A stretch of DNA of 64,000 nucleotides from an uncultured Burkholderiales bacterium (GTDB taxonomy: Bacteria > Pseudomonadota > Gammaproteobacteria > Burkholderiales > Burkholderiaceae_C), in the NCBI GenBank assembly GCA_903896615.1, contig CAITYM010000130.1, positions 1-64,000 of the forward strand, in the 5' to 3' direction. Below the pieces are notes generated by a model. The model ran no database searches. It was not told the DNA's origin and saw nothing but the letters and a program-made list of their open reading frames with translations. Every line of letters starts with the position of its first letter. The stretch's first letter is position 1. A program made the position numbers and the translations under genes. This document shows positions 5,219 to 49,553 of the stretch, in pieces.

Positions 5219-5368
5219 ATGAGTGACCATAAAGTTTGGCCCACAGGTTTGACCGAGGCTGAGTCAGAGGAGCTACATCGACACATCGTCCAAGGAACAC
5301 AATTCTTTGGAATGATTGCTGCCTTCGCTCATCTTTTGGCTTATATCTATTCGCCCTGGCTTAAATAA
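5219..5368 (+). CDS. pucB: LH2 antenna beta subunit
   Basis: MSDHKVWPTGLTEAESEELHRHIVQGTQFFGMIAAFAHLLAYIYSPWLK (49 aa), AHxLAYxYxPWL motif; SD GGAG upstream; too short for the ORF track. Confidence 0.95.
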   Translation: MSDHKVWPTGLTEAESEELHRHIVQGTQFFGMIAAFAHLLAYIYSPWLK

Positions 5369-5382
5369 AAGAGGTACAGCAA

Positions 5383-5568
5383 ATGATTTACGGAAAAATG
5401 TGGTTAGTGGTAAAGCCCTCCGTGGGTGTTCCACTTATTATTGCAGCAGTAGCAGTTGCATCGTTTTCGGTGCATTTAGCTATTTTAAATAACACAACAT
5501 GGGTCAAAGCATTTCTGAACGGAAACGCCGACAAAGTTGCTGTTACAGCTCCAGCGGCCTCCAAATAG
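5383..5568 (+). CDS. pucA: LH2 antenna alpha subunit
   Basis: MIYGKMWLVVKPSVGVPLIIAAVAVASFSVHLAILNNTTWVKAFLNG...; ungapped alignment to LH2 alpha, His31 ligand. Confidence 0.95.
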   Translation: MIYGKMWLVVKPSVGVPLIIAAVAVASFSVHLAILNNTTWVKAFLNGNADKVAVTAPAASK

Positions 5569-5640: not shown

Positions 5641-7092
5641 ATGACTAATGGCCTTCAACTTAACCGGACAGAAAACTCTACTCCAGTGGAAAAGTCATCC
5701 ATTAGCAAGAAAATAATTTATTCGTTTCTTCAGCGTGGTACCAAGTTTTTACCCTTTGCGGATGCGGCCTCCGTTAATCTCCCCCTATCTAGACTTTTAA
5801 GACTCTCTTTATTTCAAGTATCAGTTGGTATGGCCTTAGCTCTACTTATTGGTACTCTTAACCGGGTGATGATCGTTGAACTTCATGTTCCAGCATCATG
5901 GGTTTCAGTGATGGTCGCAATGCCCATCGTAGTTGCACCATTTAGGGCAATTATTGGCTTTAGCTCTGATGTCCATCAATCTCAACTGGGATGGAAACGT
6001 GTCCCCTTCATATGGAGAGGCACGATGGTGCAATTTGGTGGATTGGCGATAATGCCCTTTGCTCTGCTTGTTTTATCTGGCATGGGCCAAGCCTCCAGGG
6101 CCCCAGAATGGGTTGGCCATTTGGGCGCAGGCGTAGCATTTTTGTTGGTCGGCGCAGGACTTCACACAACACAAACAGCTGGCCTCGCCTTAGCAACTGA
6201 TCTAGCGCCCGAGGAATCCAGGCCCAAGGTGGTTGGACTCATGTACGTCATGCTACTAATTGGAATGATGTTAAGCGCACTGGTTTTTGGAATGATTTTG
6301 AAGGACTTCACGCCGGGTCGCCTGATTCAAGTCATTCAAGCTTCAGCACTTCTCACAATCGTATTAAATGTCATCGCACTTTGGAAGCAGGAAAGTAGAG
6401 TAAAAAAACCTTCATATCTCAAGCAGAAAACAGAGACCTTTAAGGAGTCTTGGATAAGGTTTTGTTACGGAGACCAAGCCCTGAGAAGGCTAATAGCGGT
6501 TGGACTCGGTACTATTGCATTCAGTATGGAGGACATCCTTTTAGAACCCTATGGGGGTGAGGTGCTTCATCTGAGTGTGGGTGCGACCACTGCACTTACA
6601 GCAACACTTGCATTGGGAGGATTAGTTGGATTTGCGTTAGCATCCAATATCTTAAGCAAAGGTTTTGACCCTTTTAAGATGGCAAGCATCGGCGCACTAT
6701 TCGGAATTCCTGCCTTCCTATGCGTCATCATATCTGCACCACTTGAATCGAGTTTGATATTTGCGTTTGGCATCTTCTCAATTGGTTTTGGTGGAGGCCT
6801 CTTTGGACACGGCACGCTCACTGCAACAATGAATCTAGCGCCGCCCGGTCAAAGTGGTCTTGCACTAGGGGCGTGGGGGGCTGTGCAAGCAACTGCTGCA
6901 GGAATCGCAATCGCAGTAAGCGGAATTATCAGAGACGTAATAGATTCAATCTATCAGGCGCCATTGGGTTACAACTGCGTTTACGCTTTAGAGATTGTGA
7001 TGCTTTTTGCAACCATAATTACAATGGCACCTCTTGTGCTGAAAATGCCAAGAGCACAATCAAACAATCAAATTCCTAAAGATTTAGGATAA
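5641..7092 (+). CDS. pucC: PucC, LH2 assembly protein (BCD-family MFS transporter)
   Basis: PFADAASVNLPLSRLLRLSLFQVSVGMALALLIGTLNRVMIVEL; downstream of pucBA. Confidence 0.93.
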   Translation: MTNGLQLNRTENSTPVEKSSISKKIIYSFLQRGTKFLPFADAASVNLPLSRLLRLSLFQVSVGMALALLIGTLNRVMIVELHVPASWVSVMVAMPIVVAPFRAIIGFSSDVHQSQLGWKRVPFIWRGTMVQFGGLAIMPFALLVLSGMGQASRAPEWVGHLGAGVAFLLVGAGLHTTQTAGLALATDLAPEESRPKVVGLMYVMLLIGMMLSALVFGMILKDFTPGRLIQVIQASALLTIVLNVIALWKQESRVKKPSYLKQKTETFKESWIRFCYGDQALRRLIAVGLGTIAFSMEDILLEPYGGEVLHLSVGATTALTATLALGGLVGFALASNILSKGFDPFKMASIGALFGIPAFLCVIISAPLESSLIFAFGIFSIGFGGGLFGHGTLTATMNLAPPGQSGLALGAWGAVQATAAGIAIAVSGIIRDVIDSIYQAPLGYNCVYALEIVMLFATIITMAPLVLKMPRAQSNNQIPKDLG

Positions 7093-44184: not shown

Positions 44185-45228
44185 CTAGCGTTTAGCCACC
44201 TTTGCATCAAGATTGCCTGCAGTGATTGCTTTCAACTCGGGGTAATCTTTGGCCATTTGCGCACCATTCAACGGCTTATATACGCCTTGATGACAGGTTG
44301 CACAATAAACTTTTGCGACATCTCCAGTTTCGCCCAGTCGGTGTGCGGGAAAAGTACTCTGCAGCGGCTCCATATAGGTAAGGTTTAAGTCTCGCACCAT
44401 GCGAATACCGTACCACGCCGTAGCTCGTTGAGGCGGGTTCCCCTCCCAACTCGAAAAAGTACGGGTGTTGTGACAATATGTGCAATTTACACCAAGCGAT
44501 GTAGCCATATGGGTCATTAATCCGTAAGTCCACTCGGCTTGTTTGATGGAGTGTTTATTGCCATTAGGCAGTGCGGTTACCCCGCCCACTCTTATATCTT
44601 GCGCGCCTAACAAAAAGGGTGTGAAAGGATCGTTAGGCAATGAGGAGAGTCCCACACTCAAAGCGGGTTCATTTTGACCCGCCTTGTCCCCGATAAAGTT
44701 TGCACCAGCGGGGGTTACATCACGTTTAAACCAAACTTGCTGTGGTATGTTGTTGCCGCGGTGACAGGTATAACAAGTGACGCCTGTATTTGCAACGTGG
44801 CTGGTCCAATTGACATTCAGATTTTGTGTCATTTGGATCATTCGCCTAGCAACCACTTTGGTGTATTTGCTGTCCTCTGCAAAGTTGGCAGGGTTATGAC
44901 AGTAAACACAGCCCTCATTAGGAGCAACCCAAGAGGCCATCGACACCATAAGACGGGTAAACTGTGCCGAGGACAGGCCACCTAAGACTTGTACGTTTTT
45001 GTAAACCTGGCTTGCCCGGGGTCCATCAGTTGGAGCCGGCGGCAGTGCAAACGGGACAGCGTTATTTTCAGCCTTCGCCTCCACAATTCTGGGGTTGTAT
45101 ATTTCCACCATACCTGTTCCGCGGTATCCGTGTTGGATGCTGTCCATGGGAGGGCGCTCACACCCTGACAACAAAAGCAACAAACCTAGGCTTGCAAGGT
45201 GGAGAATTTTAATCATGATAGATCTCAT
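44185..45228 (-). CDS. pufC: Reaction center tetraheme cytochrome c subunit
   Basis: Four CxxCH motifs (CVYCH, CYTCH, CTYCH, CATCH); lipobox LLSGC. Confidence 0.97.
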
Positions 45229-46202
45229 GGTTTCGCTCCTTGTAGGGTTGCAGGGTCAACCACATTAGGAAAAACGGGGGGATACGGTGGAGCTACACCG
45301 TGTTTTACGGCCCACAGATACCAGTTATCGACTACTGTCCCGGTTAGCAAAATTCCAATTCCACCCACTAAAGGACACAAAACTGCAAACCACCAAGCCC
45401 ATCTGTGAATCGACTCCATGGTGGCGTTAAAGCCCATCGTCCATCGCCAAAATAGAGCTGCACGCTCAGATGCAGTGCCTCGATCTACGATTTGTTCAAT
45501 TTCGCGCTCACCCCCGTAACGACCTACAGCCAAAATAGTTGCTCCGTGCATGGCAAAGAGCAACACTGAGCCGTACAGAAAAACAATCGATAGTGCATGA
45601 AAGGGGTTATAGAAAAGATTTCCGTATCGAAGCGAGAACGCCGCAGTCCAATCTAGGTGAGGAAAAATTCCAAATGGCACAGCCTCACACCAACAGCCCA
45701 TCAATACGGGTCTAAAAAATCCGAGTACGAGGAAAAGCCATATTGCACCCGTAAAAGCCCAGGGAACGTGGGTACCCAGCCCTAGCTGCCTAGCGCGTCT
45801 GTATGTTCTAACCCACCACAAAAGAATTGAAATAGTTAAAAACAAACCTGCAATCAACCACCACCCCCCCTGATTAAGCGGGGGCATATGAAGTCCATAA
45901 ACTGGAGCGGGTGGTTCAAGAGCCAACCAAAAGAGTTGTCTAACGAATTGAACAGGACTAAAGTTAACAGAGGCCAACATGTTCATACCGATAATGTTGA
46001 AGGACAAAATCCCAAACACCAAAGACGCAAGACCCACGCTTCCTAAATAAACAGGACCAATCTGTGCGTTCCCTAAACGTCCAGCAAGGTGCAAGAAAAA
46101 AGGTTTTATCAAGCGGGGATCATTTCCCTTGGGTAGAGGTATACCTTCACTCACGGGTCCCGTCGCTTGTACGGCAGTGAACAGGTTTTGATATTGAGCC
46201 AT
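45225..46202 (-). CDS. pufM: Reaction center M subunit
   Basis: [64 protein letters not shown]. Confidence 0.98.
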
Positions 46203-46281: not shown

Positions 46282-47106
46282 TCAATGCCAAATTGGCATG
46301 TTCAACCACCATCCCCACCACTCTGGCCATCCTCTGGACCAAAAAGGTCCACTGATAACGATACAAACTGCTGAGAAAAATACTGCAGCAAGAGCTAAAA
46401 ATAATCCAAGCCTGTGAATCCCAAGGGTTCCAATTGAGTAGCCCACAATATCTCTAAAAAAGGTATCCTCATGCTCAGGAGATTTGACAACTTCGCCGGC
46501 CTTTGGATTCGTGGCCGAGAGAACCAAAGCACCGTGAAGTGAGAGCGCAAAAGTGGTAGTGAAGAAAAAGGTCACTGCAATCATATGCGCAGGGTTATAG
46601 TGAAAATGCAAATACTGATAGCCTACATTGGACACCCAGTCCAAGTGACTGTAGATGCCGTAGGGAAAAGCGTGCCCCCAAGCACCCATCAACACAGGGC
46701 GAATAACCTCAAGCGTAAAGTAGGCAAATATCGCAAAACTAAAAGCAAAGGGAACGTGGTATCCCATTCCCAGTTTGCGACAAATTTCAACCTCTCTTAA
46801 CGCCCAGGAGACAAATGCACCCAAGGCGCAAACAGTTATCCACTGCCACAACCCGCCCTTAAGCATTGGCGCCATTTTGAGTCCATAGGACAAATCAGGT
46901 GGTGCAATACTGATTTGCCATAAATTCCAAGTAGGCCCCATTGCTGCACCGTACAAAATGAGAGCAGTTCCAAGTACTGAGAAAAAAAATGTCGTAACTC
47001 CAAAGAAGCCCACAAAAAACGGACCTACCCAAAAGTCAAACAAGTCGCCACCAATTAAAGTGCCACCACGAATTCGGTATTTTTTCTCAAAACTCAGCAT
47101 GGCCAT
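46282..47106 (-). CDS. pufL: Reaction center L subunit
   Basis: [59 protein letters not shown]. Confidence 0.98.
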
Positions 47107-47230: not shown

Positions 47231-47428
47231 TCAGGACTTTTCTGCCACTGGCGCTGGCATTGGCGCATTTTGCGCCGCAGCCGGTGCCGGCTTTCTAGGT
47301 CCATCGAACCAGTTATAGCGATTTGTACTTAGCAAAATGAGGTGAATCATTGCTGCTAGTGCAAAAAGAAAAATTCCCTGAGCAACCATTGCTCTTAAGG
47401 GATCAAACAGACGCCAAATTCTCCACAT
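47231..47428 (-). CDS. pufA: LH1 antenna alpha subunit
   Basis: [50 protein letters not shown] overlapping stop of the preceding ORF. Confidence 0.97.
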
Positions 47429-47437
47429 GGCTTTCTC

Positions 47438-47662
47438 CTAGTTGATATGAGACATAAAGGTGAATACTGCCGATTTGATTCCAATAAAAATGTTTTGAGA
47501 ATCCTCAGCCCCACTCAACCATTTGCGCCAATGAATGCCAACCATTTGGCCAAGCAAAGCAACAACAAGCAAAAGAACAAAGCACGGTACAAAGATCAAC
47601 AAATCACTCATCTTCTCTGTGAGAGAAAATGCACTATTGGTTTCATTCATCATTTCTGACAT
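47438..47662 (-). CDS. Uncharacterised 74-aa single-TM protein inserted between pufB and pufA
   Basis: MSEMMNETNSAFSLTEKMSDLLIFVPCFVLLLVVALLGQMVGIHWRKWLSGAEDSQNIFIGIKSAVFTFMSHIN; SD AGGAG-8 nt-ATG; 9 nt before pufA. ORF track start (47743) overlaps pufB and is probably too long. Confidence 0.85.
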   Translation of the reverse strand: MSEMMNETNSAFSLTEKMSDLLIFVPCFVLLLVVALLGQMVGIHWRKWLSGAEDSQNIFIGIKSAVFTFMSHIN

Positions 47663-47702
47663 GGCAGTAACTCCTAATTTAAAAACACTTACCTGCTCTG
47701 AC

Positions 47703-47846
47703 TTAGAACCAGGGCCGCCATGCCCAGACCAACATGTGGGCAATAACAGCTATCGCTGTAAACCCCACTAATCCTTGGACCCAGTAATGGTGGAACTCCT
47801 GAGCTTCCTCATCGGTCAGTCCGGATATTGAATTCCGATTAGACAT
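47703..47846 (-). CDS. pufB: LH1 antenna beta subunit
   Basis: [47 protein letters not shown] (47 aa); SD AAGGAG; missed by ORF track. Confidence 0.97.
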
Positions 47847-48018
47847 ATGAATGCTCCTTCTTTATGAAAGTGGCCTGGAAGACCATCGACGCGCTCAGCC
47901 CGCGCACCCTGGGCAGCCGCAACAAGACGTTGCTGCATTGGGTCCAGATTGCCTTTGTGCATTCGAGCTTGAATGCGTTCAAAGACAATCCATTGAATTC
48001 GTTGAGTTGCTGGTTCAT
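47839..48018 (-). CDS. Doubtful 59-aa ORF filling the bchZ-pufB gap
   Basis: ATGA start/stop overlap with bchZ and stop overlapping pufB start; [59 protein letters not shown]; no recognised homology. Confidence 0.25.
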
Positions 48019-49553
48019 GCTGCTACGCCCGTACCTGTTTGAGCTGCGTTTGTTGGGGTTGGAACTGGCCCAACAGGTTTTGAGTTAGGTGCAGGGGCCA
48101 TACCCAATGTCTTTGCAGTCAGCATCAAACGCTCAGCACTGACCTGGATTTCGTTTGCCTGTTGAGCGGCTCTATCAGTTGTATCTCTAAGAGTTTTAGC
48201 CACAGAGATCTGAATGAGTACGGGCTGTGCGCTCACACATTGCCTGAGTAGCTCTTGAGCCTCCTCGCTCCATTGCAGTTGTGAAGGCGCAACCACTCCT
48301 CTAGACAGTGTGGACTCTGCCTTGTCCATCTCAGTACCGAGCGGCAAAATATTAAAGAGCGCATCAAACAATGCATTGCAAACCTCTTGAACCAAATAGG
48401 TCGCACCGCTGTAACCCATAAAAGGCGTACCAGTGTGACGACGAATAATCGCACCTGGAAACGAAGCCGCAATAAAGCAAGGCTTCATGGGGCCGCGAGA
48501 TGCAAGCTCACTCAAATACATTCTTTCGTTATAGCTACCAAAAAGAATAAGAGGCGTTTGACTGCGTACCAACTCCCTCACAGCTTCGTTATCTGTTTTT
48601 TGACCCGGTAATCGAGGCACTGAAAAACGACAAGGTAAGCCCATCTCATCTTCAAGAAAGTGTTTGAGTCCGCGGGAATAAGTCTCATTGGCAACAACAG
48701 CAAAACTAGCTGTTGCAAAGAAATCTTGAGTCACTGAGCGCCAAAGGTCCCAAACCGGCTTCAAAGTCGTGTGACGTTCACGCTCAATAAACGGCTCTGG
48801 ATCCAGACCCAACATCTCGCCTAACTTTCTCAAAAAAAGAGTCGTGCTGTGCAGCCCTATTGGAGCTTGCAGATAGGGGCGGTCAAGTGCTTCACAAAGC
48901 ATACGACCAAATTCTCGGTACATGCAAATGTTTACATCTGATTCAACCAAGCGAGATACATCGGATAAGTGTGATCCCAGTGGAAAGATCATATTGATTT
49001 CTGCGCCAATCCCCTGAACCAAGCGCTTTATTTCAGCAACATCACTGGGTGAGTTGAAAACTCCGTAACTAGGGCCAATGATATTGACGCGAGGCCTATC
49101 GCCCTCTTTTCGAACACGTTTTGGCACCTTCTTGAGTCCGTACTCACTCCAGAGCCAAAACATCGCCCGATTTGCGCATTGCCACTGGTCTTCATCGATG
49201 GTACGTGGCAAAAAGCGCAATAAGTTTGTACCTTCAGGTGTGACCCCGCCCCCAATCATCTCGGCAATAGAGCCGGTTACAACTACAGCAGGTAAATCGG
49301 GATCTAATGAGGCATGAGCACGTTTCATTGCACCCTCTGTACCCTCGCGTCCGAGTTGCTCCTCTGCCAACCCAGTTACGACAATCGGCAACTCGTGAGG
49401 GGGCAGCGCATCTGTGTAATGCAGCACAGAGGTGACCGGTAAGTTCTCACACCCTACAGGTCCATCAATAACGACTTGCAGTCCCTTGATAGCCGTGAAA
49501 ACATACACAGCGCCCCAATATCCGCCAGCGCGGTCATGATCAATGACAAACAT
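48015..49553 (-). CDS. bchZ: Chlorophyllide a reductase subunit Z
   Basis: [68 protein letters not shown]. Confidence 0.97.

Follow-up and report, generated by a model that had tools for sequence, protein, structure and literature searches.

The puf operon of an uncultured Burkholderiales bacterium contains, between pufB and pufA, an additional gene for a 74-residue protein with a single strong hydrophobic stretch, which raises the question of what this protein is and what it does among the antenna genes. The window considered here is the whole stretch of 64,000 nucleotides in which the operon lies. On its minus strand the genes follow the order bchZ, pufB, the 74-aa ORF (hereafter ORF74), pufA, pufL, pufM, and pufC, and the ATG of pufA stands 9 nt past the ORF74 stop codon (Table 1). 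A preliminary description of this DNA had given the ORF, its start, stop, Shine-Dalgarno (SD) sequence, spacings, single transmembrane (TM) segment, and GQMVG string, all of which hold, and had named the flanking genes pufB and pufA, identities that are confirmed by the Pfam LHC and NCBIfam models. The window copy of ORF74 looks like an orphan because no Pfam or NCBIfam model recognizes it.

Table 1. Features of the puf region in the window, listed in the direction of transcription.
Feature	Position	Strand	Remarks
bchZ	48015..49553	(-)	immediately 5' of the puf operon
Leader 5' of pufB	47847..47960	(-)	short conserved hairpins in an alignment of 60 relatives; no Rfam match
pufB	47703..47846	(-)	canonical short LH1 beta, 47 aa, ending WRPWF; Pfam LHC and NCBIfam pufB
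Shine-Dalgarno AGGAG of ORF74	47671..47675	(-)	8 nt 5' of ATG
ORF74/ORF2-type gene	47438..47662	(-)	74-aa single-TM protein; very probably a divergent LH1 beta paralogue, without the BChl-ligating His
Gln39 codon of ORF74	47546..47548	(-)	aligned to the BChl-ligating His of LH1 beta
ORF74 C-terminal extension, residues 50-74	47441..47515	(-)	family consensus PGAEGxKSLxxGVKAAVYTFMSHL; predicted helix 58-73
pufA, LH1 alpha	47231..47428	(-)	Pfam LHC and NCBIfam pufA; SD overlaps the ORF74 stop (TAGGAG)
pufA-pufL intergenic stem-loop	47158..47211	(-)	sets pufB-ORF74-pufA apart from pufLMC; z = -1.9, only moderately better than shuffles
pufL	46282..47106	(-)	
pufM	45225..46202	(-)	
pufC, multi-CxxCH cytochrome	44185..45228	(-)	read from sequence

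The leader hairpins include a GGCC-GNAA-GGCC element just 5' of the pufB SD that is paired in 57-60 of the 60 relatives. They may serve to regulate or stabilize the mRNA, and the leader may be what was named ORF1 in Rubrivivax gelatinosus. ORF1 (59 aa, 47839-48018) was rejected as a second protein of the operon, its common part being a short stretch within the conserved leader. The stem-loop 3' of pufA fits a separate pufB-ORF74-pufA transcript.

Earlier Records and Expression

The preliminary description considered the gene undescribed, but it was already on record, as ORF2 in R. gelatinosus (from 1994) and as ORF74 in Roseateles depolymerans. A 2025 paper places ORF2 5' of pufA with a function given as unknown, after Nagashima et al. 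1994, compares it with PufA only, and rejects a link to Gemmatimonadota PufA2 (PMC12817894). In R. depolymerans the gene is RD2015_RS05155, located between pufB (RS05150) and pufA (RS05160); the three share one major 1-kb puf transcript and are the three most reduced transcripts in a sigma-factor mutant (PMC10037100), in keeping with the expression alongside the antenna genes that the preliminary description had expected. In the loci of both species compared here (L128 and L156), a homologous 74-aa ORF lies between pufB and pufA, and the window gene, ORF2, and ORF74 are one gene family.

Distribution and Selection

A search of 401 genomes of the family found ORF74 in 55 of the 65 that bear PufL/PufM, and on every contig that includes both neighbors it stands between pufB and pufA; seven more weak matches, which are, or seem to be, long forms of pufB, lie outside the 55. 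The gene also occurs in several other families of Burkholderiales, and named isolates that carry it include R. gelatinosus, R. benzoatilyticus, R. depolymerans, Limnohabitans, and Piscinibacter. An SD-like motif precedes 51 of the 55 starts, the stop codon is often overlapped by the SD of pufA, and the spacing to pufA is 9-17 nt. Pooled over 19 close pairs, dN/dS is 0.19 for ORF74, compared with 0.10 (pufB) and 0.13 (pufA), and ORF74 evolves faster than these two genes and pufL. The value of 0.19 indicates purifying selection and not the ratio near 1 that would speak against a gene. ORF74 is a real, widespread gene, and a genuine conserved single-TM protein is encoded inside pufBA, as had been proposed; a chance ORF or spacer was rejected on its conservation and dN/dS. 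A mobile or viral origin was likewise rejected, no relative having been found in viral contigs or plasmids.

Relationship to LH1 Beta

The preliminary description saw no resemblance of the protein to LH1 beta, a view that profile-based searches overturn. A single-sequence search hints at LH1 beta (E = 0.0016), and a profile of 40 ORF74 members retrieves from the PDB the LH1 beta chains 8z81_B (1.5e-16), 9m8m_B (3.8e-13), and 7xxf_B (5.2e-12), with the LH2 betas ranking after them; the R. gelatinosus sequence alone reaches LH1 beta chains at 2.8e-10. Profile-profile probabilities of ORF74 against LH beta range from 98.8 to 99.6%. With hhalign, the long beta scores 99.6% over 75 columns and the short beta 97.4%, and the PufA control reaches just 14%, on which account ORF74 was rejected as a relocated LH1 alpha. 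NCBIfam pufB matches 13 of the 40 members, and Pfam LHC 7 of them at E ≤ 1. In a gene tree built from only 74 columns, all ORF74 sequences fall on one branch beside beta (SH-aLRT 80), and the group of ORF74 plus beta is split from PufQ with a support of 99.

Long-form LH1 beta chains (8z81_B, 9m8m_B, 7xxf_B, and 6z5r_D) are collinear with ORF74 over its full length, and both have W-R-x-W followed by a PG..G..S...GVK.A tail. Unlike the long form, ORF74 lacks His both at the BChl ligand position and at -18, differs at the N-terminus, and is present on top of a normal short beta. The alignments thus leave us confident that ORF74 is a paralogue of LH1 beta derived from the long form.

The BChl-ligand position is His in 61 of 61 PufB sequences; in ORF74 it is Gln in 81 of 101 and His in one, the remainder having Lys, Thr, Ala, Leu, Ser, Gly, Cys, or Glu. 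The second beta His, on the N-terminal side (EFH, -18), is likewise His in 1 of 101. With both beta histidines lost, ORF74 is, as judged from sequence, without a standard bacteriochlorophyll ligand. Around the lost His it keeps Ala at -4, a small residue at -1, and Trp at +6 and +9; the beta scaffold residues F24 and F28 are retained, as are W, R, and W of the WRPW motif, in which Pro is mostly replaced. Conservation peaks past the membrane helix, at W45/R46/W48, PGAE, and the C-terminal VxAAVYTxMS, the best-conserved strings being W-R-x-W-L-P-G-A-E and VK-A-AVYT-F-MS. The GxxxG (GQMVG) pointed out in the preliminary description is not a motif of the family, with G38 in 22 and G42 in 20 of 55 sequences. 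An AF2 monomer has a helix at 8-49 and a second at 58-73 at modest confidence (mean pLDDT 66), a fold of one helix plus a short helix with which a fold search would match anything.

The sole relative seen with His at the BChl-ligand position is L021:1455-1701 (genome G093). A subgroup of loci (L039, L021, L072, L074, L076, L178, L181, and L183) has a clearly different LH1 alpha (MWRYWRIVDPRKAI / MWRIWRVIDPRKAI) and a distinct beta (NPSGLTDEECQEFH), with ORF74 still between the alpha and beta genes.

Operon Types

Among 194 loci with pufB, some of which are redundant because a genome can be represented by both a named and an unnamed copy, 153 have the order pufB-ORF74-pufA (two are cut before pufA), 23 have PufQ or a PufQ-like gene followed by pufB and pufA, and 18 have pufB-pufA. 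ORF74 and a PufQ-type gene occur together in none of the 194, an exclusion that partly follows taxonomy. The Burkholderiales beta beside ORF74 is always short, stopping at or just past WRPW[LF], and of the Burkholderiales loci lacking ORF74, 11 encode a long beta with an ORF74-like tail. The long beta and ORF74 share a locus in none of the Burkholderiales loci compared, a pattern for which a tree-aware test has few independent pairs. A short beta without ORF74 is found in four sampled Burkholderiales (G116 and loci L185, L188, and L189 of family f23), all of which have a PufQ-like gene directly 5' of pufB, and Burkholderiales with the long beta have neither ORF74 nor a PufQ-type gene. In alphaproteobacteria, PufQ-like genes do occur alongside a long beta; the exclusion therefore concerns ORF74 and PufQ only. 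On the PufL+PufM tree a single clade of ORF74-bearing operons is rejected (AU p = 0.003), so gene losses or operon transfers must have happened.

PufQ-like genes lie 5' of pufB in L185, L188, L189, L083, L193-L198, L209, L216, and L218. Their profile matches long LH1 beta at 97% (hhalign) and Rhodobacterales PufQ weakly, at 19%, so a common origin of PufQ-like proteins and LH beta is conceivable on these sequence profiles.

As far as the accessible literature shows, the proposed identity as a His-less LH1 beta paralogue, the spread through phototrophic Burkholderiales, and the exclusion with PufQ-type genes are new; the accessible papers on ORF2 and ORF74 leave the relation to PufB, the loss of the histidines, and the spread unstated.

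Proposed Role and Alternatives

The features above suggest that the ORF74 product probably carries no pigment and either assists the ring or forms part of it. More specifically, we put at about an even chance that it is an accessory subunit of beta type, lacking the ligand, that is produced together with LH1 and located at the RC-LH1 ring. Such a protein would insert like LH1 beta, with the N-terminus inside and the C-terminus in the periplasm, would join LH1 alpha or beta while the ring is being assembled, and would occupy a site with little pigment, either at the RC-LH1 ring or within it. The conserved tail would then be found at the periplasmic rim, in the role that the long beta tail has in lineages lacking ORF74; that role might be stabilization of the rim, stabilization of a docked cytochrome, or provision of a gap for quinone exchange. 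The structural or quinone-channel function in LH1 that the preliminary description had suggested is conceivable. Its faster evolution than that of pufB, pufA, and pufL counts against a subunit packed in the ring on all sides, and the fact that lineages such as G116 and family f23 cope with a short beta without ORF74 counts against the ring-subunit reading.

ORF74 could instead be the Burkholderiales counterpart of PufQ, a protein of antenna-like descent outside the ring that steers porphyrin or bacteriochlorophyll supply or aids pigment insertion into LH1. PufQ binds ferrochelatase (PMC5725709). PufQ (PF05398) or PufQ-like proteins and ORF74 are alike in size, single TM segment, and presence in the puf operon, and their profiles are weakly similar (96% for ORF74 against the PufQ-like set, but partial). 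The lack of co-occurrence in the 194 loci and the PufQ-like gene in all four short-beta Burkholderiales that lack ORF74 would also be expected of counterparts, and the exclusion fits an assembly or pigment-supply role equally well. Profiles and the gene tree, however, put ORF74 nearer to LH1 beta than to PufQ, which has a separate branch; no PF05398 match appears in any of the 40 ORF74 members or in the genome, and ORF74 does not lie directly 5' of pufB next to bchZ, as PufQ does. Since the exclusion is in part taxonomic and the long-beta Burkholderiales manage with neither gene, we regard equivalence to PufQ as doubtful, though it deserves serious consideration.

The retained pocket residues and the prevalence of Gln would also suit a working, divergent LH1 beta that binds BChl through Gln39 or a water molecule and so adjusts where some of the ring absorbs. 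The variety of other residues at the ligand position and the near-universal absence of the second beta His make this improbable, and ligand swaps of such a kind usually weaken binding. The TAGGAG overlap of stop and SD and the short, constant gap to pufA could, for their part, mean that ORF74 is mainly a translational spacer, in which stop/SD coupling sets the beta:alpha ratio and the peptide is unimportant; given the low dN/dS, the invariant residues, and a single family across many genera, we consider this highly improbable.

Extending the reading of ORF74 as a beta-type ring subunit, one may tentatively picture, as a conjecture less likely to be right than wrong, a duplicated beta gene split by function. 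The short copy would keep the pigment site, and ORF74 would have lost the pigment ligand but retained the periplasmic tail, so that most phototrophic Burkholderiales would have an RC-LH1 core with a specialized subunit free of pigment, in place of the long beta tail or the PufQ of other purple bacteria; PufQ-like proteins would perhaps be older members of the same His-less beta lineage.

Comparison with Other Accessory Polypeptides

PufX, protein-W, and LH1 gamma or gamma-like are accessory TM polypeptides that shape the RC-LH1 ring or its quinone pores. The PufX gene lies 3' of pufM, unlike ORF74; in the window, pufM is followed by pufC. The best PF11511 hit, from one of the 40 ORF74 members, has E = 0.27, which is no match, and ORF74 as PufX was rejected. 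Protein-W has three TM helices, and gamma-like is a 22-residue polypeptide of opposite orientation (PMC7806223, PMC9640540). ORF74 showed no relation in sequence to PufX, protein-W, or gamma/gamma-like, and sequence searches of the PDB, with its solved RC-LH1 entries, found no ORF74-family chain. Betaproteobacterial phototrophs are widespread in freshwater, and if their core complex does contain a ligand-less beta subunit, its ring size, closure, and quinone passage would follow a plan unlike those of PufX, protein-W, and gamma. The three exclusive patterns (short beta with ORF74, long beta, and short beta with a PufQ-like gene) also offer a concrete way into the long dispute over where PufQ came from and what it does.

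Elsewhere in the window, a second LH pair, pucB/pucA-like, lies at 5219-5568 on the plus strand and scores above the Pfam LHC cut-off; it is followed by a PucC/LhaA-like MFS gene (5641-7092, plus strand), and from these genes the organism probably also makes LH2.
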